Assembly: GCA_943789375.1 (NCBI GenBank)
Contig: CALSTX010000018.1
Span: 1-64,000 of the forward strand
DNA from: an uncultured Opitutales bacterium
GTDB lineage: Bacteria; Verrucomicrobiota; Verrucomicrobiia; Opitutales; Seribacteraceae
Reading direction: 5' to 3'
Length of the DNA stretch: 64,000 bases
Shown here: piece after piece, positions 12,437-63,675 of the stretch
Layout of the letters: every line of letters begins with the position of its first letter
Numbering within the stretch: position 1 is the stretch's first letter
The notes under the pieces: model-generated
The model's database searches: none
What the model saw: only the letters and a program-made list of their open reading frames with translations
What the model was told of the DNA's origin: nothing
Made by a program: the position numbers and the translations under genes

Positions 12437-12465
12437 TTGCCTGAGATTTGAGTTTCATTTTGATA
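12437..12465 (+). promoter_or_regulatory. Candidate promoter for the SGNH/dehydrogenase/cupredoxin gene
   Basis: TTGCCT (12437-12442), a 17-base spacer and TTGATA (12460-12465) resemble -35 and -10 boxes. The ATG is at 12475, so transcription would start only a few bases before translation, implying a nearly leaderless message. The same arrangement occurs at 16568-16596. Confidence 0.4.
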
Positions 12466-12474
12466 AACTCCTCT

Positions 12475-47669: not shown

Positions 47670-47692
47670 AACCTTTTCTCTTCCACTCCCTC

Positions 47693-49174
47693 TTACTTCA
47701 TCGACACCTCAATATTCTGGATCAGGTTCATCACCGGAATCATTGACTCGGTCAGATCCTCCCCAGCAAGAGAGGAAACAGAAAAGGCAATACGATCTGC
47801 GGGACACTGGGCATACCCAAGGGCAGAGTCATAGTTTTTCCACTTCCCGCCCAGATAAAACTGGGTCCACATGTGATAGACAAGTATGTGTCTTTTCTTC
47901 TTAAAACTCGGAGTGTAAACTAAGCCAGTCACCACCCGGCTGGGTATATTACATGCCCGGCCCAAGGCAGCCAGTAAGACGGAATGTTCGGTGCAATCCC
48001 CTGCCTTATTTCTGGCGACTTCGCTGGCACTAGCAAAGCCCACCGCAAAATTTTTCGAACTTATATATTTATGCACAAAGGAAGATAAGCGGCCCGCTAT
48101 TTTCCCCACATCTGTCTCATTACCCTTGGCCTGCTTGGCGAGATTCTGGATAAGCAAGTCACCGGTGTCCAGGTAAGGATTGGGATCCAAGTACTCCTTT
48201 CTTTTACTTTCCACCAACTCCGAGCCCTGGACCAGCCCTTCAGTTTTAACCAGCACTTCCACCTCCTTATCATTGACCCGGGTTACCTGCTGGTGGGGCC
48301 CTTCAAAAAGTTTCCCACCCCATGGGCCCTCGATGCTTTTGAGGACAAAGGTTGTAGACTTTTTTACTTTTGATAACGGCTTACCCAGGGAGATTACGGT
48401 ATCCAGTAAAAACTCTTCCACTTCCGCTTCCATTTTCTTCGCTTTCTTTTCCGGCACTTGCAGAAGGATCATTCGAATACCTCCCATGTTCATTTCCGTC
48501 CGCAACGCAACCCCCTGGTCATCAAGCCATGACCTGGTACGAACCGAGCCCATTCCGCTCTTGATTGTGACGACCACCTCATAGGCATCGATAAGGGCAC
48601 CTCCATGCGTTACGCTTTTTTTGCCCTTTAATTCAACGAAGGCAGGAGCTGTTGACCGCATACTCAGATCCGGGGAGTACACCTTAATCTCATAACGGTC
48701 ACCCGCTTTCTTAAATCCCTGATCTAAGATTTTTTTCTGGAGACCCCAGCTCATACCTCCCTCGGGATCAAAAGAGTAGCGACTTTCTTTTCCCCTTATA
48801 AATTGCCGCTCATAGACCACCAATTCATTACCATCCACCCTTCCTTTTTTGATCATAGGAATACCTGACATTTTCGTTTCCGTGGAAAACTCAACCAACT
48901 CACCCGACAATTTCTCCACCGTCTTTTGCTCGGCTGTTATTTCCACAACCTGCCCCACCCGCTTTATTTGAATAAGCATTTCGTTACGGCTCTTGATAAG
49001 GTCTCCTTCCCGGTACATTTGATCATGGGCATAACCAGCTTTCATTTCCCCAAGATACACCTCATACCATAGGTTATGGGGTTGAAAAAGCCGGGCTACA
49101 TTCTTTGCTTCACCGTATCCAAGTCCAGGAGACAGAGCTAAAAGAGAAAATAAAAAGCTTTTTATGTGCATCAT
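47693..49174 (-). CDS. Secreted transglutaminase-like cysteine peptidase domain protein
   Basis: A 493-residue secreted protein with a signal peptide (about 1-22), a long beta-rich N-terminal part (LWYEVYLGEMKAGYAHDQMY; residues 30-360) and a C-terminal transglutaminase-core domain. The catalytic triad is clear: Cys in NKAGDCTEHSVLLAALGRA, His in LVYHMWTQFYLGGKW and Asp in KNYDSALG. Such proteins are usually bacterial peptidases or amidases in the periplasm rather than true cross-linking enzymes. It sits between a convergent esterase-like gene and the xylose isomerase gene on the same strand (87 bases apart) with no obvious functional link. Confidence 0.85.
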   Translation of the reverse strand: MMHIKSFLFSLLALSPGLGYGEAKNVARLFQPHNLWYEVYLGEMKAGYAHDQMYREGDLIKSRNEMLIQIKRVGQVVEITAEQKTVEKLSGELVEFSTETKMSGIPMIKKGRVDGNELVVYERQFIRGKESRYSFDPEGGMSWGLQKKILDQGFKKAGDRYEIKVYSPDLSMRSTAPAFVELKGKKSVTHGGALIDAYEVVVTIKSGMGSVRTRSWLDDQGVALRTEMNMGGIRMILLQVPEKKAKKMEAEVEEFLLDTVISLGKPLSKVKKSTTFVLKSIEGPWGGKLFEGPHQQVTRVNDKEVEVLVKTEGLVQGSELVESKRKEYLDPNPYLDTGDLLIQNLAKQAKGNETDVGKIAGRLSSFVHKYISSKNFAVGFASASEVARNKAGDCTEHSVLLAALGRACNIPSRVVTGLVYTPSFKKKRHILVYHMWTQFYLGGKWKNYDSALGYAQCPADRIAFSVSSLAGEDLTESMIPVMNLIQNIEVSMK

Positions 49175-49261
49175 GCCCTACCCTAAAGTTACGGAAGGGA
49201 AGATGTCGAACTCGATTCTGCCGGGGCGGGCAGGAAAAATCGGCCCCACCCCTTGAAAAGA

Positions 49262-50566
49262 TTAAATGAATTCGTTAATTAAATTCTCAAGCATTTCCTG
49301 GCGGCCACTGGCCAGGCTGGGCTCACCATTGGCCAATGCATACTGTTCGAGCTCGGCAAAGCTGGTCGTCCCTGCTTCAATCTTGGCTCCAATATCGTGA
49401 TCAAATGTGGAATATCGCTCCTCTACAAATTTTGCCAAACGGCCATCTTCACGGATAGCATGGGCAACCTTCAGACCACGGGCAAAGGCATCCATTCCCC
49501 CAATATGTGCATGCATCAAATCGATAGGTTCATGAGACTCACGGCGTCTTTTAGCGTCAAAGTTTAGTCCACCTGTGGTAAAGCCTCCCATATCCAGCAC
49601 CACACGCATAATTTCGGTGGTCATGTAAATATCGGTGGGGAACTGGTCGGTATCCCACCCGATTAAAGTATCTCCAGTGTTGGCATCAATACTTCCCAAG
49701 GCATTGGCATTGGCGGCCACCGTGAGGTCATGCTGTACAGTATGCCCGGCAAGCGTGGCGTGGTTGGTTTCAATATTTAGTTTGAAATGGTCGAGCAAGT
49801 CATACTCTCTCAAAAAGTTCAGGCAGGCTGCGGAATCGCTGTCATACTGGTGAGTCGATGGCTCTCTTGGTTTCGGCTCGATGTAGAAAGGACCGTTAAA
49901 ACCAATGCTCTTCGCATGGTCGACCGCCATATGCAAAAATGCACCCAGGTGGTCGAGTTCCTTTTTCATATTAGTGTTGAGCAAAGACCCATACCCTTCA
50001 CGACCACCCCAAAAAGTGTAACCCAATCCTTGCAGGTCATGCGTGACCTCAATGGCCTTCTTTACCTGAGCCGCGGCATAAGCATACACCCGGGCATCAG
50101 GAGAGGTAGCCGCCCCGTGAGCATATCGGGGATGAGCAAACAGGCAGGCGGTTCCCCAGAGCAATTGTACTCCCGTCTCCTCCTGTTTTTCTTTGAGCCT
50201 GGCCACCACTTGGTCCAAAGCATGATTGGAAGCAGACAAGTCATTCAACTCCGGGGCAATATCGCGGTCATGAAAGCAGTAATAATCAATCCCAATTTTT
50301 TCCAGAAATTCAAAAAAAACATCCACCCGGGCGACTGCATTCTCTACCGAGTCACTCTTATCATCCCAAGGCATTTGAGCCGTACCCGCCCCAAAGGGAT
50401 CCGCCAACTCATTGCGCATCACATGCCAGTACGCTGCCCCAAACCGCAAGTGGTCCTTCATGGGCTTACCGCCAACTTCCTCGTTTGCGTTGTAGTGCTT
50501 GAATGCAAGCGGATTTTTGGAACTGGGTCCTTCGTATTGGATTTTATCGCAGTTAAAATAGTTCAT
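49262..50566 (-). CDS. xylA: Xylose isomerase
   Basis: A 434-residue cytosolic xylose isomerase (class II length) interconverting D-xylose and D-xylulose with two divalent metals. Visible signatures: [12 protein letters not shown] with the catalytic His, [28 protein letters not shown] with a metal-binding Glu, [13 protein letters not shown] with Glu and His ligands, and [19 protein letters not shown] with the Asp ligands. No xylulokinase or transporter gene is adjacent, which is unusual for a xyl locus. The upstream region carries an 11-base motif also found before the cupredoxin/PA14 gene, suggesting common control by a sugar-responsive regulator (inference). Confidence 0.95.
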
Positions 50567-50913
50567 AGATTAAGAAATGATAGAGAGGTGAAAGTTAAAC
50601 AGATTTTTCTTAAAATAGAACAAATAAACAAAATTTAAAACCGCATTTTGCGTATTTATTCTGTCATTTTGAGCCAGACGGCGATCCATACACCCTTAAT
50701 AAACATTACAAACTAATCAAAAATCTTGATTTCAGCTCATCCTGCTTTTTAAAAGAAACATATCAGCACTACCCAAACTAGTGGCAGATATACAAGTTGT
50801 GACACGCAAAGTGTAACCACCCCCATAGAAATTCGGCACACTATTCGTGCATAAATCGAGAATACATCACTTATTTATATGAACACGCATGCAAATTCGG
50901 CATGGTGGGTTTA
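50567..50913. other. Intergenic region upstream of xylA
   Basis: About 350 AT-rich bases between xylA and the lipoprotein gene. Besides the operator-like motif at 50643-50653, I see no ORF, RNA gene or strong hairpin. Confidence 0.5.
50643..50653. promoter_or_regulatory. Operator-like motif upstream of xylA
   Basis: GCATTTTGCGT, identical to 41631-41641. Extending one base gives CGCATTTTGCG, a nearly perfect palindrome. It is 77 bases upstream of the xylA ATG on the opposite reading. Confidence 0.5.
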
Positions 50914-51480
50914 TCAATAACTTCTAGCTTCTGGAAGTGGTCTCCTCCAGTAAGAATCTCTAACCTTGTATTTCCGCTGAACATTTTCTAACTTCCCGAC
51001 TCTGCCAGGGAATCCCTCCACTTTCACATCATAGGTTTTGAAAAGGAAGTAATTTTTCTCTGTGACATCATACATCGTGTAGCCAAGGACATCACATTTA
51101 TTTTTATCACAAGCATCCCTAAGAGCAGCTTTTTTAAATTGGTCTGAAGTTGAACCTATGGCAGCAAGGGGAGCGAGTGCCATACTCGCAAAAGAAGTGG
51201 CTCCCGCACTGCTCATACCGCCTCCGTCCATAGTACTTTCACCACGGTTGTTAATATCAACTCCATCTGCTGTTTTGCCTGCTCCTATGGTAATTAGACC
51301 AAGAATTTTCATTCCATTTGCCTTACCCATCACTCTTTGCTCACCCATGGGTACATCCACAACATAGTCACGCTTGGGCTCAAAAACACCAATTGTTCGG
51401 CCTTTCTCGACAACATCACGAGAGTTTTTTGCACAACTTCCAAGAAACACAACAATAGTCAGGGTGATAAATAATTTCAT
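50914..51480 (-). CDS. Small lipoprotein of unknown function
   Basis: A 188-residue predicted lipoprotein. I start it at the ATG at 51480 because that gives the signal MKLFITLTIVVFLGSC with a lipobox (FLGSC), and an AGAAG ribosome-binding site lies just upstream; an in-frame ATG at 51510 lengthens the protein by ten non-hydrophobic residues. The mature part has a glycine/serine/alanine-rich segment (NRGESTMDGGGMSSAGATSF) and a conserved-looking CDVLGYTMYDVTEKNYFLFKTYDVKVEGFPGRV region. The AALRDACDKNKCDVLG pattern resembles small envelope lipoproteins that end in a modified TIM/OmpA-like fold, but I do not recognise a named family. It stands alone on the minus strand. Confidence 0.65.
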   Translation of the reverse strand: MKLFITLTIVVFLGSCAKNSRDVVEKGRTIGVFEPKRDYVVDVPMGEQRVMGKANGMKILGLITIGAGKTADGVDINNRGESTMDGGGMSSAGATSFASMALAPLAAIGSTSDQFKKAALRDACDKNKCDVLGYTMYDVTEKNYFLFKTYDVKVEGFPGRVGKLENVQRKYKVRDSYWRRPLPEARSY

Positions 51481-51619
51481 CAGCTTCTTTTGTGAATAAA
51501 CACAAAGCATGTCAATCTTATATAAGTTTAATTATAGAGAATAAGATACTTATGTGAGTCGTGATTTTAAAATTTTCATTACCCATTTAGGTAAGGAAAA
51601 TCAGCCCTCTACTGCTTCA

Positions 51620-52753
51620 TCAATTGAGGCGGGCACCAAGGCCTCCGCCGTATCCCGCCAGCTCAAGGTAGGCACGACCAATCACTACCCCATCTTCATC
51701 CAATACCTCACAAGCACCTTCCCAGTAGGCATTGTCTGCCCGGTTACCGAGAAACTCTTGGTTAGCAAGTAGGGGGCGCAAATAATAACTTACCTGACCA
51801 GCGATTGGATGGATTGCTGCTATTTTGACAGAGGTTGGATAGCTAAGATCTGTTGCAGGACTGGTCCATGCATCTTCCTCCTCCCAGGTAAAATGGTCTG
51901 CATATACTTGGGCCACCTCCCCCTTTGAATCAATCCAATACACCGATGACCAACGATCACTGCCACCATCTTCCTGGCGCAAGCGGTAGGCTTTCACCTC
52001 GGTTCCCTCATTCAGCTGCATGCAAGTCCAATCCCACCCTGCCAGGCCCTGACCTAACTGACTGGAGGAAATCTCATGGTCCATCCAAGCCTCTCCCCTA
52101 ACCTTGTGTTCTGTGTTGTTAAGGTACAAAGTACCCTCTGCTTGCAAGCGGGTGTAGGACCAGTACCAGCTTACCGAAGCTGCCCCGTCCCCTTTCCGGC
52201 TAAGCCCCCGTTCTCCAAACCGTACCAGAGGCTTTAGGGGAAAAAGCTCAAGCTCCAAACGGCCACCGTTCGGATACCGCGTGATCAAGCGGTGACCCTT
52301 ATTTCCGGGTAACATCTCAGCCTCAATTCCCCCGGCCAGGAGGGATAAGGTCGAGGAATCAGCCCGTGCCTGCCACCCCTCTCTCATGACCCGCTCATGG
52401 TGAATGTATCTTTTCTCTTTGATATCACTCAACGCAGAATGAGCCAAAAAAAGATGCCGGTTACCAAAAAGCCCATCTTCATTTCCAAGAGATTTCACCG
52501 GATCTCCTGCCACCCGAAAAACAGTTGATTGAAACCCAAAGTTTTTAAGATTTCCATCCGCTTTCAGGTGACCTACCCAGTACCACCACTCCAAGCCATA
52601 CTCACGGTGAGCACCATGATCACGGGGGAACAAGGGAGAATAGTCTGGAGAGGGAACCCGGTACCCTTTACCTGAGCGAACAGGTGGCTCGATCCATTCA
52701 GCTGCCATGAGCAAAGGGGCAAGAAAAAGCAAACAGGTAAAAAACTTCATCAT
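51620..52753 (-). CDS. AttH / CrtC-like lipocalin-fold secreted hydrolase
   Basis: A 377-residue exported protein of the AttH family (COG5621; related to carotenoid 1,2-hydratase CrtC). The ATG at 52753 gives the signal peptide MMKFFTCLLFLAPLLMA and overlaps the permease stop as ATGA. Family motifs: YGLEWWYWVGHLKADG, GFQSTVFR, HRLITRYPNGGRLELELFPL, VRGEAWMDHEISSSQ and GLAGWDWTCMQLNEGTEVKAY. AttH genes commonly sit with an ABC ATPase and an FtsX-type permease, as here, and are thought to act with that transporter in the envelope; the reaction is not established. Although CrtC-like, the gene belongs to the ABC operon and not to the carotenoid operon 4 kb away. Confidence 0.85.
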   Translation of the reverse strand: MMKFFTCLLFLAPLLMAAEWIEPPVRSGKGYRVPSPDYSPLFPRDHGAHREYGLEWWYWVGHLKADGNLKNFGFQSTVFRVAGDPVKSLGNEDGLFGNRHLFLAHSALSDIKEKRYIHHERVMREGWQARADSSTLSLLAGGIEAEMLPGNKGHRLITRYPNGGRLELELFPLKPLVRFGERGLSRKGDGAASVSWYWSYTRLQAEGTLYLNNTEHKVRGEAWMDHEISSSQLGQGLAGWDWTCMQLNEGTEVKAYRLRQEDGGSDRWSSVYWIDSKGEVAQVYADHFTWEEEDAWTSPATDLSYPTSVKIAAIHPIAGQVSYYLRPLLANQEFLGNRADNAYWEGACEVLDEDGVVIGRAYLELAGYGGGLGARLN

Positions 52754-55332
52754 CTTCGAAAATTCCAATAAATTGCCGCTATCATTCCTGAGACAAAACC
52801 AACGACGGTCAACAAAAGTCCAAACCATAGAATGCTCTCCACAGGAACTGTCCACAATAAGGTCCATCCAAATGATTGTACATTAATCACAAACACAAGT
52901 AACCAACCCAGGGCCAACCCTGTAATCGCACCTGCCACCCAGGCCGCAACTCCAATGCCTGCCCCCTCTAACCCAGCTGCTAAGATAAAACCGTGGGTGG
53001 AAAAACCGAGGTGTTTCAAGGTCTGCCAGGTTTGAGTGGATTCATCAAAGATGGAAAGCAATCCAAGGAGTAAGCCGGCAAAAGCAACAGCCAGTCCAAT
53101 AAAACTAAGGGCATCAGTTGCCTTAAAGGTCTGCTCAAAAATACCCAAGGCTACATCCCTGAGCTCCCTTTCATTGCGAACATCCAAACCTGGATAGGCA
53201 AGGCGCAAACGATCCCTTGTCTCCAGCAACTTGGCTCGATCTCTTAAGTATAGACTGACATTGATGGGTCTGTCCGAGCCTGTCCAGTCCGACCATATAT
53301 CAGAAGAAATAGCGGCCATGCCAAATTCATTTCCGTAATCGCAAAAAATGCCAAAAGGAGAAATTTTCTTGGTACCATCCGGTGTACCCAATTCCACAAC
53401 GCCTCCTGCCATTACCCCAAACCGGCGGGCAAAGGTTTCACTTACCAGAGCCGGCTCGGCTCCATCAACTGCCTGTAAAGAGCCCGGAGCTTTCAGCCAG
53501 ATTTGCCGGGCTTGATCACTCCAGTGCTTCATATCCACCCCGGCAAGAACAGTCACCCCCCTGGGCGGCTTGGCGTAACAAATCCGCATCACATCTGCAT
53601 ATTTTATATTTGGATCCTTTAAAAGTTCATCCATTAATCTGGGATCAATCCCATTTACTGTACCGGCTCCAGTTACTCCACTTTCGGAGATATAAAGATC
53701 CGCCTGAAACCGAACATCAAACCATTCCTCAATCGTACCCCGGAAACTGTCAATCATTTGAAACATTCCCGTTACCATACTCACCGCAACCACAAGACCG
53801 GCCACCGCCAACCGGTGACGGCTAGAGCCATCCCGCAAACGGCTGGACGCCAACCGAAAAACAGGTCCGCTACAAAATGGACGCACCCAGCCAGCAAGTA
53901 GAACCAACACATGCCCCGATAGTAAGGCCGCACCCAAAATCCAACAACCTGCAGCCAGGAATCCTCCGACTGGCATGTTTGAACCAGCCTCCATGACAAA
54001 AGGAGGGAAAAGCAAAGCAATGCCACCGAGTAAAAGCAGACCCAACCCAATTACAGGACTTCGCAGCCAGGAAAACCCCGGGGACCAGTCGCCCCTTGCC
54101 AAAACCTGAGCGGGTGGGGTTTGGGTGGCATCACGGGCAGGAAGCCAACCGGCAAGCAAGCTAAACACTATACCCAGAACCAAACCAACAATCACATCGA
54201 TGGAGGTCAGGTTTAAGGCCTCCACCGAAGTGGCGAAGTACAGAGCATTTACGGTGTCTGAGAGCATGCCCACCGCACCAAAAGCGAGAACCTGCCCAAC
54301 ACCAACTCCGGCAACCGAGCCGAATAGGCCTAAGACAAGAGCCTCCAATACATAAGTGGTAAACAGAATTGATCCATCCACACCCAAAGACCGTAGGGTT
54401 GCGATTTCGGACCGTCTCCGCACAACCGCCGCATCCAAAGCCTGCAAAATCAGATAAGCTCCCACTAGGATAGCAATCAAAGAAAGAATGGTTAGGTTTA
54501 AGCGGAAAGCTGCGGTCATCGCGGCCCGGTCAGCGGCCCGGTTTTGGGTCGGGGCCAGGCTCAAGTTTTGAGGTAATTCTCGTGCAAGACGATTTTCGAT
54601 ATCATTCAGGTAGGCGGTGTCCTCCCTTCGGTTGACTTGATCGATCACCACCTCCACCCGGTTTAATTCTCCAGGGCGGCTCAACAGTGTCTGTACCGTT
54701 GGCAGGTCGGCAAGCACAAGATCATCCGGCAAATTTCCGTCCGGATCATTCAGAATCATCCGAATTTTCATTTTCACCAACCTACCACTGGCGAGAAAGG
54801 AAATGCTATCTCCCTGCTTCACCTCAAGTAGATCCGCAGTTTTTTGACCAACCCATACCTCGTTCTTGCTTCCCAGCCAGTCATACCAATTGGCGTCCTC
54901 ATCGGAAAACTTCAGACCCTCCTTTGCCAAAGTTGGCAGGTTACCAAGGGCAAGCAAGTCTAAGCCAATGAGCCGGAGTTGTTTCTTGTCTTCGCTTCCG
55001 TTTTTCACCGCGGTTACAGACCCCTCAATCACAGGAACTAGGTGCCAGTCCGGCTCCTTGCTGAGCCTGGTCAGTTTCGCCAGGTCCTCCTCGAGTAACC
55101 TTTGCACCGGTGATTCGATCAGAAAATCGCTTTGTCCAGAAACGGCCTGGTTAAAAAGTCCAAAGTTTGCAGAAGCTGAGCGGCTTGCCTGGCGGATACC
55201 ATTAAACGCCCCCACCCCTACCGCCACAATCCCGAGCAGGAGAAAATAATGCCCCATTTTACTCCGCCAGTGACGAAAGGTCATGCGAGTGAGCAACAGC
55301 CACACCAGTTGAAGACGGAAACTACGGTGCAT
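52750..55332 (-). CDS. FtsX-type ABC transporter permease
   Basis: A permease of 860 residues from the ATG at 55332, chosen because it lies four bases after the ATPase stop; a more upstream start would overlap that gene. It has the duplicated FtsX architecture: an N-terminal membrane helix (HYFLLLGIVAVGVGAFNGI), a MacB-like periplasmic domain (70-260), an FtsX block of four helices (270-420; RSEIATLRSLGVDGSILF), further helices, a second periplasmic domain (530-730) and a final FtsX block (760-860; FDESTQTWQTLKHLGFSTHG). With the ATPase and the AttH-like protein it forms a three-gene coupled operon. This class does not import nutrients but usually moves lipoproteins or lipids or drives envelope remodelling. 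Confidence 0.87.
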   Translation of the reverse strand: MHRSFRLQLVWLLLTRMTFRHWRSKMGHYFLLLGIVAVGVGAFNGIRQASRSASANFGLFNQAVSGQSDFLIESPVQRLLEEDLAKLTRLSKEPDWHLVPVIEGSVTAVKNGSEDKKQLRLIGLDLLALGNLPTLAKEGLKFSDEDANWYDWLGSKNEVWVGQKTADLLEVKQGDSISFLASGRLVKMKIRMILNDPDGNLPDDLVLADLPTVQTLLSRPGELNRVEVVIDQVNRREDTAYLNDIENRLARELPQNLSLAPTQNRAADRAAMTAAFRLNLTILSLIAILVGAYLILQALDAAVVRRRSEIATLRSLGVDGSILFTTYVLEALVLGLFGSVAGVGVGQVLAFGAVGMLSDTVNALYFATSVEALNLTSIDVIVGLVLGIVFSLLAGWLPARDATQTPPAQVLARGDWSPGFSWLRSPVIGLGLLLLGGIALLFPPFVMEAGSNMPVGGFLAAGCWILGAALLSGHVLVLLAGWVRPFCSGPVFRLASSRLRDGSSRHRLAVAGLVVAVSMVTGMFQMIDSFRGTIEEWFDVRFQADLYISESGVTGAGTVNGIDPRLMDELLKDPNIKYADVMRICYAKPPRGVTVLAGVDMKHWSDQARQIWLKAPGSLQAVDGAEPALVSETFARRFGVMAGGVVELGTPDGTKKISPFGIFCDYGNEFGMAAISSDIWSDWTGSDRPINVSLYLRDRAKLLETRDRLRLAYPGLDVRNERELRDVALGIFEQTFKATDALSFIGLAVAFAGLLLGLLSIFDESTQTWQTLKHLGFSTHGFILAAGLEGAGIGVAAWVAGAITGLALGWLLVFVINVQSFGWTLLWTVPVESILWFGLLLTVVGFVSGMIAAIYWNFRR

Positions 55333-55336
55333 CAGA

Positions 55337-56035
55337 TCAGCCTGCAAGCAGGGCACCATCCTTCATTGTGATCACCCGATCACAAATACGGGTGGACTCA
55401 TGGTCATGCGTCACTAAAAGGAGTGCCACCTCAAGTTCTTCCGATAAAGACTTGAGCAATTTCAAAACCTGACTCCCGGATTCAGTATCCAAACTACCGG
55501 TGGGTTCATCTGCGAGTACAAGTCTTGGGTGATGCACCAAGGCCCTTGCGATGGCAACCCGTTGCCTCTCTCCCCCACTCAACGCACTCGGCAAGTGATC
55601 CATCCGATGGCTCAGCCCAACCTGTTCCAATAAATCAGTCACCCGGGCAAGCCTATGTTCCTTGGGCATTCCCACCAACTGAGCAGCAAATTCCACATTT
55701 TCAAACGCGTTCAAAGTGGGTAATAAATGGAAGGACTGAAAAACATATCCCATATTTTCCCGTCTCACTTTTTCCAATTCTCCACGCTTCAAACCAGACA
55801 ACTCTTGCCCACCCACATGGATGGATCCGTGATCTACAGGTTCAATGCCGCAAATACAGTTTAAAAGAGTAGACTTCCCACTGCCACTTGGCCCCATCAA
55901 AGCCACTCTTTCTCCTGCATCAATCTTAAGGTCGATCCCCTTAAGCACATCCACTTTCCCGAATGACTTCCTGACATCCGCAACCGAAAGAGCAACTGGT
56001 TTAATTTGGTCTTTTATATTTTCGTTCAAGAACAT
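55337..56035 (-). CDS. ABC transporter ATP-binding protein (LolD/MacB-like)
   Basis: A 232-residue ATPase of the LolD/MacB/FtsE group. Walker A is ALMGPSGSGKSTLLNCICG, the Q-loop lies in MGYVFQSFHLLPTLNAFENV, the signature is SALSGGERQRVAIARALVHHP, Walker B is RLVLADEPTGSLD and the H-loop is LLVTHDHEST. It is the first gene of the operon with the FtsX permease (four-base gap) and the AttH-like gene. Upstream lies a gap of about 150 bases toward the lipoprotein remnant on the opposite strand, which must hold its promoter. Confidence 0.92.
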   Translation of the reverse strand: MFLNENIKDQIKPVALSVADVRKSFGKVDVLKGIDLKIDAGERVALMGPSGSGKSTLLNCICGIEPVDHGSIHVGGQELSGLKRGELEKVRRENMGYVFQSFHLLPTLNAFENVEFAAQLVGMPKEHRLARVTDLLEQVGLSHRMDHLPSALSGGERQRVAIARALVHHPRLVLADEPTGSLDTESGSQVLKLLKSLSEELEVALLLVTHDHESTRICDRVITMKDGALLAG

Positions 56036-56183
56036 AAGGATATGAAAATTTCACAAAAGCCCAAGACGAACCCACCCTACATTCTCAATTCCTTAATCGT
56101 TGCCTACTTACAAGGCGGAAGAGAAAAAATCATTTTTGATTACATTACCTCATATCCCTAACAAGATTTGGAATACCTCCACA

Positions 56184-56759
56184 ATGTGCCCTCCGTGTAA
56201 ATCCATTCAATTCTTTTCTCCCTTTATCTTTTGCCTTGTTCTTGGTTGCTTGCGGAACCATGGAGGTTCAGGAGTTTAAAGGTTACACCGAATCTATGGA
56301 TCTGGACAACCAACTAGAAGTTTCAATAGCCCTCGTCCGAACACCTAGGCAGAAAAATTCAACCACCTGGATGGAAAAAATGGAAACATATGAGAAATTT
56401 AACTTCCAGGTCTTTATCATGGATGAGGATGGATACGGGAAAAAACCCATATTAAATCCATCAAAATTCATTCTTTTTCCTAACAGTTAGAGGATAAAGT
56501 CCGGACTGAGATTTTATCTGATTATGATTACAACTTCTGGATGCAGGGAAACCACCAGTATAATAAAAGAAGATCAATCAAGCCTCCCATTTCCTTAATC
56601 TGTGATATAATGCGGCAAATTAGCTGGTCCACTCTCCGCATTGCCATAGAAATTACCACCAGTTGTCTGATTGAAAGCTCAACAAATTGTCCAATTTATA
56701 CCAATCTATTTAAAACCCAAAAAACGGCCAAAACCAACCCATCATTTGCCCATTATTAG
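56184..56759 (+). pseudogene. Lipoprotein gene remnant, frameshifted
   Basis: A coding remnant of a small lipoprotein. A signal-like stretch ending in LVAC (frame of 56236, which itself has only a TTG start) or a cysteine-ending signal from the ATG at 56184 in another frame leads into CGTMEVQEFKGYTESMDLDN and NFQVFIMDEDGYGKKP. The frame ends at a TAG at 56490, but protein-like sequence continues in the next frame (EDKVRTEILSDYDYNFWMQG) and fades before 56759. At least two frame changes are needed. I do not recognise the family. The 3' end is 25 bases from the TIGR03643-like gene. Confidence 0.45.
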
Positions 56760-56783
56760 AATTTCCACTAGAAATATGCTTTC

Positions 56784-57062
56784 ATGAAACCTAAACAATC
56801 CGACAGTCCCGTTACCCGAGTCAAAAAACCGGAGCCATCAAAAGACAGTCCGAATTGGATCATCTGGGCAGCCTGGGCCGACCGGATCACTTTTGAAGAA
56901 ATTCGCAAAGTCACGGGCCTTACCGAGAGCAAAGTCATTGCCCACATGAGAAAGTCTCTCAAACCCTCCAGCTTTAGATTGTGGCGCAAGCGAGCATCCA
57001 CCCAAAGCATAAAACACCAAAAACTTTTCCGCCACCGCCGCTCGCAGGACTCGGACTACTAG
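56784..57062 (+). CDS. TIGR03643 / DUF2805-like small protein
   Basis: A 92-residue protein with a short charged N-terminus and the family core WIIWAAWADRITFEEIRKVTG-L-ES-VIAHMRKSLKPSSFRLWRKR followed by a KHQKL segment. The family is an uncharacterised helix-turn-helix-like small protein of marine and other bacteria, often encoded near photolyase/cryptochrome-like genes as far as I recall. The helical pattern and basic C-terminus suggest nucleic-acid binding, without proof. It is convergent with the light operon, whose last gene (blh) ends 112 bases away, so a light-related context is plausible, but the two are not co-transcribed. Confidence 0.75.
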   Translation: MKPKQSDSPVTRVKKPEPSKDSPNWIIWAAWADRITFEEIRKVTGLTESKVIAHMRKSLKPSSFRLWRKRASTQSIKHQKLFRHRRSQDSDY

Positions 57063-57173
57063 TTTTAAGCTCACTGTACTTAAGAAATCCCTACCTGCAT
57101 TTTCGTCTATTTCACCGAACCGTGCTTTCAGATGCAACCAACTGCCCCAAACTTGATAAGTAGTTCGCATTTC

Positions 57174-58241
57174 TCATTTTGCAGGTGCTTTCTTACATTG
57201 AAAACTATCCATCAGGCAAACCACCACCGTATGCGGAAGAGTTAGGATTGATATGCCCAGCATTGCTTTACCCAACCAGTCAAGTTGAATACCTCGAAAA
57301 GATAAGGGGAGTGCGAGCAGGAACCACAATCCCACCAATGCAAGAACGGTCATCAATCCGCTGATCTGCAACCATCGTGCCTTAAGTTTTAGATAAGCAC
57401 CGACCATCAAACTTTGCTTTGCTACAGGGTCGATCCATATAATACGAAGGGCATGCCTTAAGCTGTGCCAAAGAGCAAAGTAGATTCCTATTGCCCAAAA
57501 AGGAGGAAGGAATAAAAACCATAAAAACAGAAAACATGCTTCAAAAAGATCGAGTAGCCAAGCAGTCCGCTCCCCTTTCAATAATTGAGTAGTTGATAAA
57601 GCGATTTGCAGGGCTGTAAGAATCAGGGGGACTAAGAGGAAGAAAAGTTTATTTTGGGAAACCCAGCTCAGATCATAGTTGATTTGTCCTCCCTGCCTGA
57701 TCATTTCCTGCAAAAATAGGCAGTATGTCTCATTTCCGAGATAGCCAGGTAATAGGATAGGTAAGCTTCCCCTCGCCATAATATGTAAAGTCTTCAAGAG
57801 CACAGATCGCTCAAGGTAGCCGGCACCATGCAATTTCACAGACAAGTATCGGTCTCCCTGCCCCCAATGAAAAACGGTGAGAGCAAGAAAGAACACAGCC
57901 GAAGCCACTGGCTGATAATGCCAGCATATGAGATACAAGATAGAGAGAGCTGGATACAGCAGAAGAGTGGAAATCCGGAAAACCCAGGTGCTGTCCTTGA
58001 TCATTCCCCAAAGTAACAGATGATCAGCTCCGCCATGAGGCATACCAAAAAGAAAAAGACTTAGGTACAAAGGAAGGAGTTGATAGGATATAGGCCAATC
58101 AACACTGAGAAAGCCTAGGATCGCCATAGGGAGAAGCAGTGCCATGGTACACTTGGTTAACCCTGGTGAATACGATTTTGGAAGCGGTTCCCTTGAAGCT
58201 GAATCAAGTGTCAGCGGGTTCCATTCAATCCATTTCATCAT
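57174..58241 (-). CDS. blh: Beta-carotene 15,15'-dioxygenase (Brp/Blh family)
   Basis: A 355-residue integral membrane protein with about nine to ten hydrophobic helices, the last gene of the light operon. It cleaves beta-carotene symmetrically into two molecules of all-trans retinal, the rhodopsin chromophore. Iron-ligand histidine motifs of the family are present: FGMPHGGADHLLLWG (66-80), VFHWGQGDRY (123-132), YFALWHSLRHALR (about 265-277) and LTLPHTVVVCLMD (about 332-344). It starts with an ATGA overlap with the lycopene cyclase gene (58241-58238), so translation is coupled to the enzyme making its substrate. A second ATG follows directly at 58238. Confidence 0.92.
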   Translation of the reverse strand: MMKWIEWNPLTLDSASREPLPKSYSPGLTKCTMALLLPMAILGFLSVDWPISYQLLPLYLSLFLFGMPHGGADHLLLWGMIKDSTWVFRISTLLLYPALSILYLICWHYQPVASAVFFLALTVFHWGQGDRYLSVKLHGAGYLERSVLLKTLHIMARGSLPILLPGYLGNETYCLFLQEMIRQGGQINYDLSWVSQNKLFFLLVPLILTALQIALSTTQLLKGERTAWLLDLFEACFLFLWFLFLPPFWAIGIYFALWHSLRHALRIIWIDPVAKQSLMVGAYLKLKARWLQISGLMTVLALVGLWFLLALPLSFRGIQLDWLGKAMLGISILTLPHTVVVCLMDSFQCKKAPAK

Positions 58242-58933
58242 ACTTTATTTCTCCATACCTGCCAGAGACAGAGACCCTGAAACACGAATAAATTAGTCAA
58301 CCCAAAGAAAAGAATTTCCTCGATGGGAAGATTGCCAATTTCAATGCCCGAACGGGTCGCTTCGGTGATCATCCAAATTCCATCTGCAATGGCAACAGCA
58401 TCTGCAAGGCATAGATATAAGGTAAAGCCAACCCAAAGCGGACCCCATTTTTTACAGGATGAAAGTAACGCCCGAGCCCCCAGGCCCCATTGAATCGCTA
58501 ATGGAGGGAATGCCCATACAAAGATCAGACCAGCATAGGTTCCAGAACCATCAAGCAAGCAACAGGCTCCAATCAGACCGATAATGACAGCCGCCGCTAC
58601 TCCTTTTCCTGAAAAACATAGCTTGGAAGCAGGTATATTGTGGGGAATAAAACACCAAAGAATTCCCGCAAACACTGTCTGCAGAACCATAAATCCATAT
58701 TCCTCAATTGGCACAAATCCAATGGTTCCCAGGACAACACCTTCGGGGTAACTCCATATATTTTGCTCAATAAGATAGTTATCCCAAGGCGTGGTGTAAA
58801 CAAGAGCAATCATGCCCATAAGACCAATTCCTACAATTTTTTCCCGCCGAAGGCATTGCTTCCTGTAAGCCCAAAGAGTAAAGGCAAGCAAAGGAATGCC
58901 TATAAAAAAGATCAGGAACTCCAGGTAGGTCAT
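58238..58933 (-). CDS. Lycopene beta-cyclase, CrtYc-CrtYd-like single-chain type
   Basis: A 231-residue membrane protein with two copies of the lycopene cyclase domain (TIGR03462-like). Copy 1 has PWDNYLIEQNIWSYPEG and the acidic motif VPIEEYGF (PIEE at 75-78); copy 2 has ADAVAIADGIWMI and LPIEEILFFGLTNLFVFQG (PIEE at 203-206). About seven membrane helices are visible. This type, separate in actinobacteria as crtYc and crtYd and fused in archaea and fungi, cyclises lycopene to beta-carotene. It starts six bases after the CrtI-CrtB stop and overlaps blh by four bases. It differs from the FAD-dependent CrtY usual in proteorhodopsin cassettes of Proteobacteria and Bacteroidota. Confidence 0.88.
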   Translation of the reverse strand: MTYLEFLIFFIGIPLLAFTLWAYRKQCLRREKIVGIGLMGMIALVYTTPWDNYLIEQNIWSYPEGVVLGTIGFVPIEEYGFMVLQTVFAGILWCFIPHNIPASKLCFSGKGVAAAVIIGLIGACCLLDGSGTYAGLIFVWAFPPLAIQWGLGARALLSSCKKWGPLWVGFTLYLCLADAVAIADGIWMITEATRSGIEIGNLPIEEILFFGLTNLFVFQGLCLWQVWRNKV

Positions 58934-58939
58934 AAATGA

Positions 58940-61255
58940 CTAAGGTACAAATGCCCTGAAGAGACAAGGCAGCAAAATTCTAGTCTTCTTACGGTTGGAA
59001 ACTACAGCTCTTTTTGAATGATGAAGAGATGGATCTTCTTTGATCAGTTCTCCGATTTCTCGGTACATTCGGCCAGCCCAACGAACCACAATTCTCATCC
59101 GCAGCGGAAGATACCGAATTCCTACCTCTCCACTGGCATATCGTTGGTCTGCAATTGCGAGCAAGCGAAGTTTGGCCTGATTTATCTCTGCCATAGAAGC
59201 AGGGTTAGCAGAAAGTAAATCCGAGGCCGTGGGCCAGTGATCAAAGGATTCTGCAGGAAGGTAAATCCTATCTCTTTGAGCATCTTCTCGAATATCACGA
59301 CAAATATTTGTTAGTTGCATCGCAATGCCAAGATCATCCGCATACTGCAATGCAGCTGGGTCGGTAACGCCAAAAATCGGGCATGTCATCAAGCCAATAG
59401 TTCCGGCCACTCCATGACAGTATTTTATAAGTTCTGCATCTGTTTGGATTCGTACGCCCTCTAGTTCACCAATCATAGCTTCCATTAATTCGGTTAGAGG
59501 AAAAGAGTCCAATCCCCATCGGGCCTGAAGGAGGCGATAATGATCCAATAATTCGTGTGGTTGATGGTTTTCCCAACAATTCATAGCATCCTTGAGCTTA
59601 GCCCCCTCCCCTTCGTCCGCCCAATCATCAAGGGTTCTGCATACATAATATAGTCGAGAGATGGCTTCGGCTCTATCCTTCGGAAGGAGTAGAGAAGCAA
59701 TAGAAAAAGTCCGGCTCTTAGAGCGGAAAATATCCTTAAAGGCAGACTCATTCTCTATTCTCGAGGGAGGTACCAGTTTTTCAACTACTTTTGCTGAAGA
59801 AACCACACCAGGTACTCCTGCTCCGGGATGCGTGCCTGCTCCGCAAAAATAAAGATTTTCCAGATCTTCGGATCGATTATGGAATCGAAACCAGGCGGAT
59901 TGCCGAAACAGAGGAGCGATTGAGAATCCACTTCCCCACAAAGTATTGAACTTGCCCTCAAAATCATCCGGAGTAACGAAATGAGAATATGCCAAACAGT
60001 CTCCAAGCCCGGGAAGCAAGGATTTCTCCAACTGTGCTTGCACTTGATTGCGAATTTTCTCCCCGGATTCCTCCCAGTTTATTTTGGCAAGCTTGTTGGG
60101 AACTGGTGCCAAAACATAAAAGGCATCCCCCCCTTTTGGTGCCATGCTTTGGTCGGTTGCCGCTGGACGATGAAGATAGAGACTGAGATCATCAGATAGG
60201 ATTTTCCGGTCATAAATATCTTCCAGTAATTCCTTGAAAGCTTTTCCCATAATGATGGTATGATGCTGAACATCTGGGTAGGCACGGCTGGTTCCAAAGT
60301 ACCAAACAAACAAACCCATGGAAAAAGAAATTCGTTCAAGTCTGGCATTTGACCATTTTGATCGATGTTCGGAATCGATAAGATCACGATATACTTTTGG
60401 AGGATCCGCATCGAAAACAACCAAATTCGCGAGTTTTTCTTCTCCGGATTTCAAGCGGATACCGCACGCTTTTTTTCCTTCAACGATTACCTTACTCACC
60501 TGTTGGTTGAGTTCCAGTTTAATACCCACTTCATTGATTAATTTCACCAGCGCTTCAACCAACGCACCGGTTCCTCCCCTTGGAAACCAAACCCCCCATT
60601 TGCGTTCGAGATAATGAATCAAACAGTAAATTGAAGTGGTATTGAGTGGATTGCCACCGACGAGCAGAGGGTGGATGCTGAAAGCCCGACGCAACCTCTC
60701 ATCCTTAAGGAAACTTCCAACCAGTGAATAAACTGAAAGATAACTCTTCAAAGCCAGCAAAGCTGGGACTTGCTTAATCATAGTCTGAAATCTATGGAAC
60801 GGCTGGTCTGCAAGTTTTTCAAAACCCACTGCAAAAATTTTCTTGGAAAAGCCGACCAGTTTTTGGTAGCCCAAGCCTTCCCCCGGAGATAGACGATTAA
60901 TTTCTGCAACCGTATCTTCAAGCTTCCCCCCATAGTCCAGCTTCGAACCATCTTCAAATTCAAAACGGTACCATGGTTCAACAGGCAGAAATTCTATGTA
61001 ATCAGACCTTTTTTTACCAAAGAGCCCAAACAACTCATCAAACAAAAATGGTGCCGTGATTACAGTGGGTCCGGCATCGAACTTAAAATCTCCTGCCCTA
61101 TATACTTGAGCACGTCCTCCCGCCATCGGATTATTGTCTATGAGAGAAACATCGTATCCAAGACGACGTAGACGCAGTGCCATAGCTAATCCCCCAAAGC
61201 CTGCTCCAACAATTATGGCTTTCCTGGCTGGCAGTGACTGATTCCCTGTAGTCAA
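58940..61255 (-). CDS. Phytoene desaturase-phytoene synthase fusion (CrtI-CrtB)
   Basis: A 771-residue bifunctional enzyme. Residues 1-495 are a CrtI-type phytoene desaturase: FAD-binding AIIVGAGFGGLAMALRLRRLG (GxGxxG at 17-22), GGRAQVYRAGDFKFDAGPTVI, and the C-terminal signature CGAGTHPGAGVPGVVSSAK. Residues about 500-771 are a CrtB-type phytoene synthase: SKSRTFSIASLLLP, YYVCRTLDDWADEGEG with the first Asp-rich motif (about 543-547), and LTNICRDIREDAQRDRIYLP with the second (about 653-657). All key residues of both halves look intact. One chain would thus turn GGPP into phytoene and then lycopene. The two are separate genes in standard proteorhodopsin cassettes. The gene lies 33 bases after crtE and six bases before the cyclase gene. 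Confidence 0.92.
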   Translation of the reverse strand: MTTGNQSLPARKAIIVGAGFGGLAMALRLRRLGYDVSLIDNNPMAGGRAQVYRAGDFKFDAGPTVITAPFLFDELFGLFGKKRSDYIEFLPVEPWYRFEFEDGSKLDYGGKLEDTVAEINRLSPGEGLGYQKLVGFSKKIFAVGFEKLADQPFHRFQTMIKQVPALLALKSYLSVYSLVGSFLKDERLRRAFSIHPLLVGGNPLNTTSIYCLIHYLERKWGVWFPRGGTGALVEALVKLINEVGIKLELNQQVSKVIVEGKKACGIRLKSGEEKLANLVVFDADPPKVYRDLIDSEHRSKWSNARLERISFSMGLFVWYFGTSRAYPDVQHHTIIMGKAFKELLEDIYDRKILSDDLSLYLHRPAATDQSMAPKGGDAFYVLAPVPNKLAKINWEESGEKIRNQVQAQLEKSLLPGLGDCLAYSHFVTPDDFEGKFNTLWGSGFSIAPLFRQSAWFRFHNRSEDLENLYFCGAGTHPGAGVPGVVSSAKVVEKLVPPSRIENESAFKDIFRSKSRTFSIASLLLPKDRAEAISRLYYVCRTLDDWADEGEGAKLKDAMNCWENHQPHELLDHYRLLQARWGLDSFPLTELMEAMIGELEGVRIQTDAELIKYCHGVAGTIGLMTCPIFGVTDPAALQYADDLGIAMQLTNICRDIREDAQRDRIYLPAESFDHWPTASDLLSANPASMAEINQAKLRLLAIADQRYASGEVGIRYLPLRMRIVVRWAGRMYREIGELIKEDPSLHHSKRAVVSNRKKTRILLPCLFRAFVP

Positions 61256-61288
61256 TTTAAAAGCAGGCGAGAGGGAAATTATAAATGA

Positions 61289-62200
61289 TCAAGAATATCC
61301 AAGTAATTTATTGGAGGACGGAACCAAAGGATTGAGTGTAATAAATGGAATGATGACATTGGAGAAAAAGTCATTCATTTCTGGAACATGAAGTTTCCCA
61401 AGGTCAAGAGCCTTAGATATAAGATCTTTTTGGAAATTCTCAATAAATTCTTCTTTTGATCTTTCGTCAGGCATGGTGTTTTCCAGAAGATAATATAGAT
61501 TAGGACGGTTATTTTTTAAGTCAGACAGATTTTTGCGGCCGTTTTTTATTCCAAGATAGTCAGCCTGATCATCCCGGATCTGATAAGCAATAGCGAGATT
61601 TGTAAAAATATCGGTTATAGCGTCCAAGCAATCTTGATTTTCCCTGGACGCAATCGCAACACAACGGGCAGGCAATGCAAACATCACTCCAGTCTTGTCC
61701 CGCGACATGTCTGTATAATTGGTAATTATGTCATCAAATGTTTTGGATTCAAAATCCAATTCATGAAAAGCACCCCTTACTGCACAGGTTACGCAGTTGG
61801 AAATTTCCAATGCCCAAGCTGCTTTAATGGAAGGACTGGTGATGATGCTTGAGGAAACTGCTAAAGACTTTGCAATTAATAAGTCTCCCAGAAGAAGAGC
61901 CTTATTCTTACCATATTTTTTCCATGGTGTTTCACATCCCCTTCTTTCAACATCGTCGTCAATCAGATCATCATGGATCAGGCTGGCATTATGAAGAAGG
62001 TCCGTAAATGCAGCTATGTCCAACAGTAGATCTTCATCCAAACCAAAAGACTTTCCAGCAGATAGACAAATTTTTGCACGAACTTTCTGTCCTGCCCAAA
62101 AATAAGGATCTTCCACATAGTCCCTAAGAATAGGATCTTCACAAAAGAAATTCCTGAGCCGCCATTGGAGACGGCCCAGGAAGTTTGAACTACAATCCAT
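61289..62200 (-). CDS. crtE: Geranylgeranyl diphosphate synthase (polyprenyl synthetase)
   Basis: A 303-residue trans-prenyltransferase. First Asp-rich motif SLIHDDLIDDDVERRG (DDLID at 77-81), second AYQIRDDQADYLG (DDQAD at 210-214), and the intermediate KTG at 169-171. The region before the first motif (FTDLLHNASLIHDD) has small and aromatic residues at the positions that set chain length; GGPP is inferred from the operon. It supplies the C20 substrate of the CrtB half of the next protein. It begins 23 bases after the rhodopsin stop and ends 33 bases before CrtI-CrtB, with the ATG at 62200. Confidence 0.9.
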   Translation of the reverse strand: MDCSSNFLGRLQWRLRNFFCEDPILRDYVEDPYFWAGQKVRAKICLSAGKSFGLDEDLLLDIAAFTDLLHNASLIHDDLIDDDVERRGCETPWKKYGKNKALLLGDLLIAKSLAVSSSIITSPSIKAAWALEISNCVTCAVRGAFHELDFESKTFDDIITNYTDMSRDKTGVMFALPARCVAIASRENQDCLDAITDIFTNLAIAYQIRDDQADYLGIKNGRKNLSDLKNNRPNLYYLLENTMPDERSKEEFIENFQKDLISKALDLGKLHVPEMNDFFSNVIIPFITLNPLVPSSNKLLGYS

Positions 62201-62223
62201 AGATTGAGTATCTATTCGAAAAG

Positions 62224-63036
62224 TTAAGCTGTTCGCTCGCTATCGCTTGTAGCTGCAACCCAAATGGCAAGACCAAAAGCTGCCTTGTTCACCAAGTCTG
62301 CAAGGTTGTAAACGATGTTAAGAGTTTCACTGTCATGAGTTCCGCCGCCCATGTATGCCAGGTAGTAACCAATTGGATAGATTGCCCAGCCAAAAGTTAC
62401 AATTGCACGAATGGTTTTGAAAGCCTGCTGAGAAGCAGCGTTTCCACTATTCTCATTGATTTGCGATGCTTCCCCTTTGAAAATTTCATAGATGATGTAT
62501 ACCCAGCCGGCCATTCCTACGAAGAATGCGGGTCCTACATCTGCATAACCAGCTTCACCAGCATATCCACCAACCAACATGACAAGAGAGGCAATCAGTA
62601 GTTTCCAGAAAAGATTGGCACTTACCTTGGTTACAGCTGCAAGAATCAAGTAAAATTCCACAATTTGCAAAGGCACAGTAATTAACCAGTCAACATACCT
62701 GAATACAGTGGGGCTCGCTCCGGTGGAAACCCAAACCTCTCTCATGTATAAATAGTGCCAAAATGCAATTCCTGTTACGAGTCCAGCAACCGTAAGAGAT
62801 GTTTTCCATTTTCCTTTCACACGATCCCTTTCAATGAAAAAGAAGACGGTGGCAGCGAGCATCATGGCAGTCGCCAGCCAAAAGCTTACGCCCACAAAAT
62901 CATCAGGATTCAGTGAACCATCATAGTTTACTGCGGCAGTTTCGACTGCGGCAGTTTCCTCTTCTGCGTGGTTATCAGCAAATGTCAATATTGGAGCTAA
63001 CATTGAACATAGTAGTAGTAGTAGGATGTTTTTCAT
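62224..63036 (-). CDS. Proteorhodopsin, light-driven proton pump (blue-tuned type)
   Basis: A 270-residue seven-helix retinal protein, first gene of the light operon, with a cleavable signal peptide (MKNILLLLLCSMLAPILTFA). I start it at the ATG at 63036; a GTG two codons upstream is possible. Numbering from 63036: proton acceptor D116 and its triad partner T120 in RYVDWLITVPLQIVEFYLIL, proton donor E127, acceptor-linked His94 in GIAFWHYLYM, and Schiff-base Lys251 in YNLADLVNKAAFGLAIW. The D-T-E motif marks an outward proton pump. The tuning position (proteorhodopsin residue 105) is Gln at 124, the state typical of blue-absorbing forms from clear oceanic water. Overall very like the gammaproteobacterial proteorhodopsins, suggesting transfer into this lineage (inference). 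Confidence 0.96.
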   Translation of the reverse strand: MKNILLLLLCSMLAPILTFADNHAEEETAAVETAAVNYDGSLNPDDFVGVSFWLATAMMLAATVFFFIERDRVKGKWKTSLTVAGLVTGIAFWHYLYMREVWVSTGASPTVFRYVDWLITVPLQIVEFYLILAAVTKVSANLFWKLLIASLVMLVGGYAGEAGYADVGPAFFVGMAGWVYIIYEIFKGEASQINENSGNAASQQAFKTIRAIVTFGWAIYPIGYYLAYMGGGTHDSETLNIVYNLADLVNKAAFGLAIWVAATSDSERTA

Positions 63037-63448
63037 TTTCACAGTATGTATATTTTGTTGTTTTGGTTAAAGTCTTTCAGATCGAAGAAACTTTATGGCG
63101 TTAAGATTTGTGCAAGGAAATCATAATAAAAGAAGAAATCATTAATTAATTTTTATGATCATTTTCTTTATGATGTTCGGTTGTCAACATAGTTTTACTA
63201 TGCAATGACTTGATTTTAGTAAGTAATTCAAATACTTACTTCCCCCATATACTTGACGCCTAAGTACTTATGGTAATAATTTAAAAAAACTGATAACAAA
63301 TTTCACAAATATTACATTATCTCCAAAACCCTAAATCCCTGGGGTTATCTCTCGCAAAATGTTTCTAGGTTACAACATTCCTTGGATTACCTAATCAAAA
63401 AGCCCATACATTATCCTTAACGATTTGGAGTAAACATCATTTCACCTG
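63037..63448. other. Upstream region of the light operon
   Basis: About 410 AT-rich bases without a gene. On the minus strand a TTGACA box (63187-63182) with an AAATGA/AATGAT element about 17-18 bases downstream (63164-63158) is a candidate promoter, giving a leader of roughly 115 bases. A partial match to the xylA-type motif (TCGCAAAATGT) lies at 63353-63363. I see no terminator or RNA gene. Confidence 0.4.
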
Positions 63449-63675
63449 CTACTCAAGGATTGTATCGATGATACGATAATACCCCTCGCCCTGTACTTTC
63501 GAAGCCCTGCAAATTTGTCTTTCACTTCGGGCAAATCTTGGGGGTGTTTAAGAAGGTCCTGTTCCAGTTTATCAAAAATTCTTTTCAGCTCCGACTTATC
63601 AATCTTTTTCAGGTCTTTGAAGACGGGTTACCTGGCAAGAGGCTCAGATATGCGAACGGCAAGAAAAGTATTCAT
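63449..63675 (-). pseudogene. RelE/ParE-like toxin gene remnant
   Basis: Read on the minus strand, three short segments align with a RelE-type toxin: MNTFLAVRISEPLAR (from the ATG at 63675), then after a frame change FKDLKKIDKSELKRIFDKLEQD and LPEVKDKFAGLRKY, and after a second change GEGYYRIIDTILE to a TAG at 63451-63449. The DLKKIDKS, KGKFAGLRK-like and YYRII strings are typical of the fold. Two frameshifts and no adjacent antitoxin gene indicate a dead module. The assignment is from pattern recognition only. Confidence 0.5.

Follow-up and report, generated by a model that had tools for sequence, protein, structure and literature searches.

The closest described system is the 'PR-1' cassette reported by Bar-Shalom et al. 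(2023, PMC10284914) from Candidatus Pelagisphaera and marine Opitutales, which includes a fusion of the carotenoid genes crtI and crtB (crtIB). According to that paper, ATP and glucose uptake depend on light in the carbon-starved isolate ISCC53 (Ca. P. phototrophica), and the fusion may aid the channelling of intermediates, which is argued there from fusion studies. A verrucomicrobial metagenome-assembled genome (MAG) with a rhodopsin is described in a 2018 study of the Mediterranean (PMC6040077). Apart from these two papers, our literature search returned none that we recognised as dealing with the PR-1 cassette. Here we analysed a window of 64,000 nucleotides (G000:C18:1-64000) from the genome of an uncultured Opitutales bacterium (assembly GCA_943789375.1, our G000; 2.73 Mb in 27 contigs), in which the open reading frame (ORF) listing places five co-directional genes on the minus strand at 57174-63042, encoding a proteorhodopsin (PR), CrtE, a CrtI-CrtB fusion, a lycopene cyclase and Blh.

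We read this locus as a proteorhodopsin photosystem of the PR-1 type known from marine Opitutales, one that has been horizontally exchanged and occupies a variable position next to the DUF2805-lolD-ftsX genes, and we put the probability of this reading at roughly 0.86. The cassette is ordinary in kind, its type having been published in 2023 (PMC10284914), and our comparison adds a further Opitutales family to those carrying it. The contributions beyond the published type are the class of the cyclase, a tuning-site glutamine in all 21 cassettes where this site can be read, and the horizontal passage; they are of modest evolutionary interest, and the exchange is the one most worth following. Taken as sequence evidence, it indicates that species of marine Verrucomicrobiota have passed light-driven energy capture to one another, and this helps to account for the differences in phototrophy among close relatives.

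Gene content and distribution of the cassette

The first-pass annotation had proposed five coupled minus-strand genes covering everything from geranylgeranyl pyrophosphate (GGPP) synthesis to retinal, and the ORF coordinates together with Pfam and NCBIfam matches agree with it. The spacings that it gave, namely 23, 33 and 6 bases followed by a 4-base overlap, are reproduced from the coordinates; its end at 63036 corresponds to an in-frame alternative ATG of the PR gene, whose ORF starts with GTG and runs to 63042. The PR gene (62224-63042, 272 amino acids) matches Bac_rhodopsin in Pfam (2.2e-48) and is followed by crtE, encoding GGPP synthase (61289-62200, 303 amino acids; polyprenyl_synt, 2e-37). 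The crtIB gene (58940-61255, 771 amino acids, TTG start) is a natural fusion, in which a phytoene desaturase part (about residues 1-498; CrtI family TIGR02734, 4.3e-166 over 13-498) and a phytoene synthase part (about 507-771; SQS_PSY, 2.4e-53 over 511-755) share one frame. The lycopene cyclase gene (58238-58933, 231 amino acids) and blh (57174-58241, 355 amino acids; BCD, 8.8e-45, and TIGR03753, 2.5e-62) complete the set. The crtI-crtB fusion in one frame beside pr, crtE, cyclase and blh is the PR-1 arrangement. Motifs that we take to mark these enzymes are readable in the translations: DDLID and DDQAD (DDxxD-like) in CrtE, a dinucleotide-binding GAGFGG in CrtI, DDWAD in CrtB, and the histidines of PHG, HWG, HSLRH and PH in Blh.

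Retinal is made from GGPP through phytoene, lycopene and beta-carotene, and is then taken up by the pump. In the window, CrtE would make GGPP, the CrtI-CrtB fusion would condense it to phytoene and desaturate this to lycopene, the CrtYcd-type cyclase would convert lycopene to beta-carotene, and Blh would cleave the latter to retinal. Retinal would bind Lys253 of the PR, and blue light would then drive proton export to support ATP synthesis and uptake. Chance assembly of the cassette is excluded because the same genes occur in the same order in many other genomes. We found no Rfam match, no tRNA in the 64-kb window and no match of the rhodopsin or CrtIB to PHROGs; promoter-like sites numbered 12 (13.0 expected) and terminator-like sites 5 (7.8 expected), no more than in shuffled sequence.

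The cyclase matches only CarR_dom_SF (TIGR03462, 7.1e-34, in two stretches) and Lycopene_cyc among Pfam and NCBIfam families, with no FAD-type (flavin adenine dinucleotide) CrtY match, and it has two PIEE motifs, which fit the PxEE motif that we take as typical of CarR/CrtYcd-type cyclases. Judged by these two CarR domains and their motifs, the enzyme is of the CarR/CrtYcd type, not FAD-type CrtY. A homologue was present in 22 of the 61 stretches searched, each time alongside a fused-type CrtIB. FAD-type CrtY is found in other verrucomicrobial cassettes (L111, L116, L156-L159) and in gammaproteobacterial ones with retinal genes (L133, L134, L154, L155). The main text of PMC10284914 names the cyclase crtY and does not contain the word 'lycopene'; we correct the type printed there to CarR/CrtYcd.

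For the distribution, we used CrtIB as the query, which biases the set towards CrtIB, and examined the best 80 of at least 574 confirmed loci (at least 595 pattern matches). The same cassette, whole or cut at a contig end, stands in about 20 further loci. Among the 80 loci, the closest are L002-L004 (CrtIB 82-84% identical), titled Verrucomicrobia bacterium AG-908-P09, AG-891-C06 and AG-919-G08; AG- names are in the style of single-cell genomes, and two of the three titles start with MAG. A frame check identified an intact fused CrtIB of the window's type in 19 loci (L002-L020), a copy cut at the contig end in L021, a CrtIB in two frames in L023 (G102) and a fused frame of another branch in L025; the other 58 loci have no single frame matching both CrtI and CrtB. 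Of 273 genomes searched within the order, a sample of a larger group, 46 had a match at 1e-60 and 16 encode CrtI and CrtB in a single full-length frame; identity is 71-100% in 15 of these 16 and 47% in G266, and the copy of G102 is in two pieces. PR itself occurs in 9 of 42 genomes of the family, all within the window's genus (9/27, against 0/15 in the rest), and two congeners that are 95-96% complete lack it; many of the 42 genomes are incomplete, and G015 lacks PR yet has crtIB. Across the phylum, 14 of the 387 genomes drawn had a rhodopsin match.

The closed isolate genome of ISCC53 (G233, locus L112) carries the same gene order and the crtIB fusion, with PR 76% and CrtIB 71% identical to the window, but it belongs to a different family (f13, the window f1), its crtE is just 49% identical and its neighbour genes are others. 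Four other verrucomicrobial cassettes (L156-L159, in G105, G272, G840 and G866) also have PR, crtE, crtI, crtB, cyclase and blh in line; unlike the window, they keep crtI and crtB separate and have FAD-type CrtY and a Leu at the tuning site. Separate crtI and crtB and FAD-type CrtY likewise distinguish the four gammaproteobacterial retinal cassettes. In the thraustochytrid CrtIBY, too, carotenoid enzymes are naturally fused, CrtI and CrtB among them, but this eukaryotic fusion has three parts and takes in the cyclase (PMC10016063).

The first-pass annotation had suggested phylogenies of all five genes, and in the trees that we ran, fused-type CrtI and CrtB each form one clade (support 99) that includes ISCC53. 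L023 was left out of the CrtI trees because of its broken frame and out of every tree in the set that included the approximately unbiased (AU) test of crtE; L032 and L037 were left out of crtE, and L018 out of the crtYcd tree. The first-branching pair in the fused clade, L020 (a 'Euryarchaeota' MAG) and L021 (a 'Gammaproteobacteria' MAG), are nearly identical to each other. G266 holds a second full-length fused CrtI-CrtB (L111, 7479-9863; 794 amino acids, 46-47% identical); the Opitutales PR cassette around it has FAD-type CrtY, and its rhodopsin has Leu as the tuning residue. This fusion is best placed outside the fused clade, yet union with that clade was not rejected (AU p 0.35 for CrtI, 0.47 for CrtB), and an independent origin of the fusion there is possible but not established. 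Union with the window's fusion was rejected (AU 0.0008 and 0.043) for L025 (121-2790), where a Burkholderiaceae MAG contig has CrtI and CrtB in a single frame, checked by its letters only; no match to the window rhodopsin was found in that genome. For crtE, a long stem (0.96 changes per column) is common to the window and L002-L004, but the AU p of 0.053 does not establish a replacement of crtE in this clade.

Conflict between host and cassette trees

In the host trees of rpoB and gyrB (21 rows each), G000 and G032 are sisters (RpoB 99% and GyrB 95% identical) and G017 comes next; the genome of G032 is 96% complete and lacks PR. The cassette core tree (crtI, crtB, crtYcd and blh concatenated; 16 rows) instead joins the window with G034, G036 and G037 at 100/100, and G017 with G028 at 100/100, the G028 row holding crtI and crtB only because of a contig end. 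The host trees reject a group of G000, G034 and G037 (AU 1.5e-69 for rpoB, 8e-97 for gyrB). The cassette tree rejects the window with G017 (1.3e-50), the window with G017, G038 and G015 (7e-8), G028 with G034, G036 and G037 (1.9e-6), and the genus without G051, a member of another family (0.0077).

For the marker trees, 25 genomes were searched per marker and only the longest ORF per locus was taken. Four rpoB rows are partial, those of G000 (1105 amino acids, with a frame break in the assembly), G017, G035 and G039, and the gyrB row of G034 has 439 amino acids; the gyrB row of G015 (branch 9.84) is evidently a wrong ORF that was kept in the tree. Rows are missing for G023, G036, G051 and G262 in rpoB (no match) and for G023, G029, G035 and G036 in gyrB (only paralogue-level matches). 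The rpoB gene of the window's own genome (G000:C10:210435-214272) is split over two overlapping frames, likely by assembly error.

Exchange is also seen between families. G233 and G219, from two families, are 78% identical in RpoB and 70% in GyrB, but 95% in CrtI, 94% in CrtB, 90% in crtE and cyclase and 89% in Blh, with PR at 80%; the congeners G233 and G257 are 99% identical in RpoB and 96% in PR, against 94% in CrtI, 89% in Blh and 84% in crtE. We conclude from these identities that retinal genes have been transferred between families, and that PR has not always moved along with them. The departure of PR identity from that of the retinal genes (L112 in G233, L113 in G257, L014 in G219) suggests that PR may at times have been exchanged alone.

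The 2023 authors (PMC10284914) lean to loss, with a suspected duplication, and on that view patchiness and tree conflict would reflect vertical descent in which losses were frequent and rates uneven. Loss does occur, as the pseudogenized copy reported in that paper and the CrtIB of L023 in two frames attest, and an ancient duplication followed by differential loss might in theory reverse sister relations. Nevertheless, loss alone cannot give 95% identity in CrtI at 78% in RpoB when congeners at 99% in RpoB have 94% in CrtI, nor does it reverse sister relations at such tree support, and we consider this explanation unlikely. In our reading of horizontal exchange, the window's species would have got its cassette from another lineage of the genus, or would share it with one, and the transfer was probably by recombination. 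We also find it rather probable, with less assurance than for the locus itself, that the PR-1 cassette is an exchangeable phototrophy module of marine Opitutales, which crosses species and family borders, sits in varied neighbourhoods and has parts (PR, perhaps crtE) sometimes swapped apart from a crtIB-cyclase-blh core. Patchy phototrophy would then reflect gain and loss by recombination, not loss alone.

Neighbourhood and host

To the left of the cassette, 46921-56077 is collinear with the rhodopsin-less sister G032 over about 9.2 kb at 82% and includes the genes of a LolD-like ABC ATPase and an FtsX-like permease. A native DUF2805 gene segment (56782-57062, plus strand) matches G032 at 83%, G016 at 79% and G017 at 80%, lying to the same side of the lolD-like gene in all three, and its match ends 112 bases from the blh stop. 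To the right, 63627-64000 matches G037 at 76-80%, at a place about 10 kb upstream of that genome's lolD-like gene, and the match runs on to contig position 64405. The proposed acquired segment is 57063-63626, with a left border well supported by three relatives and a right border on one. The alignments place the cassette, accompanied by hardly any other DNA, at a variable point within a known neighbourhood beside DUF2805-lolD-ftsX, and the landing site is only partly resolved. Holders of the cassette differ in its neighbours, with at least three arrangements in the genus (the window; L002-L004; L005/L009/L019).

Just before its DUF2805 gene, G032 has two genes (280 and 243 amino acids, no Pfam match), and G016 and G017 carry other genes there. 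G000 lacks the second gene of the pair by protein and both by DNA. A clean swap of this pair for the cassette was rejected, the second gene being in 4 of 8 genomes only and absent also from G016, G017 and G036. A search for transposon or repeat borders at the cassette gave only short, chance-like repeats and no mobile element. A remnant resembling a RelE/ParE-type toxin gene, read by eye and without a search, lies at 63460-63640 on the minus strand, its frame apparently broken.

A mis-binned or chimeric contig, with a host devoid of the cassette, is very unlikely. The data are MAG-like and such artefacts seem present in our set, in L012 and L021. Here, however, the left flank is native, as the 9-kb collinearity with G032 and the DUF2805 gene of three relatives attest, the right flank lies in the same neighbourhood in G037, and one closed isolate genome has the cassette type. 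Among the suspected artefacts, L021 (also L135, 1-2500) drops in GC content from about 0.42 to about 0.28 right after a crtIB frame nearly identical to that of L020, and its MAG also has another PR cassette (L133); this contig end is probably chimeric. The 'SAR92' MAG (G281) has the Opitutales-type cassette on one contig (L012) and a different PR cassette (L134) on another, and L012 is probably a binning error there.

Several points weigh against our reading of an exchanged photosystem at a variable spot. The right flank matches G037 only, with none in the stretches of the other relatives; an assembly error is possible; a 362-residue gene further right had no match in the seven relatives tested, and 56078-56781 had none among the loci compared. 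A clean empty site was not found, and G032, G016 and G017 differ from one another in what precedes the DUF2805 gene. The groups put to the AU test were chosen after the trees were seen, the PR-only tree (34 rows, with the partial L008 and L013 omitted) resolves the base of the group poorly, and the colour and activity of this pump rest on its sequence.

The host is a marine Opitutales member of the Planctomycetes-Verrucomicrobia-Chlamydiae (PVC) group, because the nearest cassettes among the loci examined are titled Verrucomicrobia or Opitutae, the window has two large PVC-type heme-binding proteins (TIGR02604 by profile search; 12448-15873 and 33705-38225), and 9 kb are collinear with a congener. 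The earlier view of a complete PR and retinal cassette in a Verrucomicrobiota-like organism with PVC-type surroundings is thus borne out. The two heme-binding proteins each combine GDSL lipase, TIGR02604/DUF7133 and plastocyanin-like domains in a single chain. At 51620-52867, a lipocalin protein with a Pfam CrtC domain adjoins the FtsX and ABC ATPase genes; given these neighbours and its likeness to AttH, we rejected a carotenoid role, and the name of the domain could mislead an annotator into one.

Predicted properties of the pump

In an alignment with 35 other rhodopsin rows, the window PR has H96, D118, T122, Q126, E129, E163, F173 and K253. Of these, H96, D118, T122, Q126, E129 and K253 align with H75, D97, T101, L105, E108 and K231 of green-absorbing proteorhodopsin (GPR). 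The bacteriorhodopsin family match, the Schiff-base Lys and the D/T/E motif place it in the PR subfamily, its best solved relatives are proteorhodopsins (4jq6 at 2.4e-100, then green and blue PR entries), and outward proton pumping is predicted. Gln at the site of GPR Leu105 is the mark of blue PRs, as the first-pass annotation had already read together with D, T and E, which makes blue absorption, with an expected maximum near 490 nm, a sound prediction. This Gln is present in 21 of 21 readable cassettes of the window's type (20 full rows and the partial L008; the L013 row stops short of the site, and no PR lies on the stretches examined for L005 and L021), and a Leu stands there in all five other verrucomicrobial PR cassettes (L111, L156-L159). 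That the rhodopsin is sensory, or serves a function other than outward proton pumping, is hardly credible: blue PRs have slow photocycles, but both carboxylates (D118 and E129) are present, the gene shares an operon with a full set of retinal-synthesis genes, the flanking ORFs that were named include no transducer gene, and a relative shows light-dependent ATP (PMC10284914). A carotenoid antenna was set aside, with Phe173 at the fenestration position, where Gly is the mark of antenna-binding rhodopsins.

The first-pass annotation had also called the rhodopsin strikingly like gammaproteobacterial ones. Blue and green gammaproteobacterial PRs (4jq6, 4kly, 2l6x) do share the pump residues, with the tuning Gln in 5 of 7 of their rows, and the likeness is fair on identities up to a point. 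Identity to the window PR is 65-90% for PRs from cassettes of its type, counting full or nearly full matches, and 59-62% for those of other Opitutales; in 274 genomes from the class to which the 'SAR92' MAG belongs, the best PR reaches 69% (G459), excluding a 74% match on the suspect contig L012/L118, which we think is misassigned. No source is resolved by the PR tree, and because its base is open, a gammaproteobacterial source is neither shown nor excluded. A more distant rhodopsin (33-35% identical, with D, T, L, E and K) occurs in Legionella worsleiensis (L022, 6286-12233), followed by crtE, crtI, crtB, crtY and blh.

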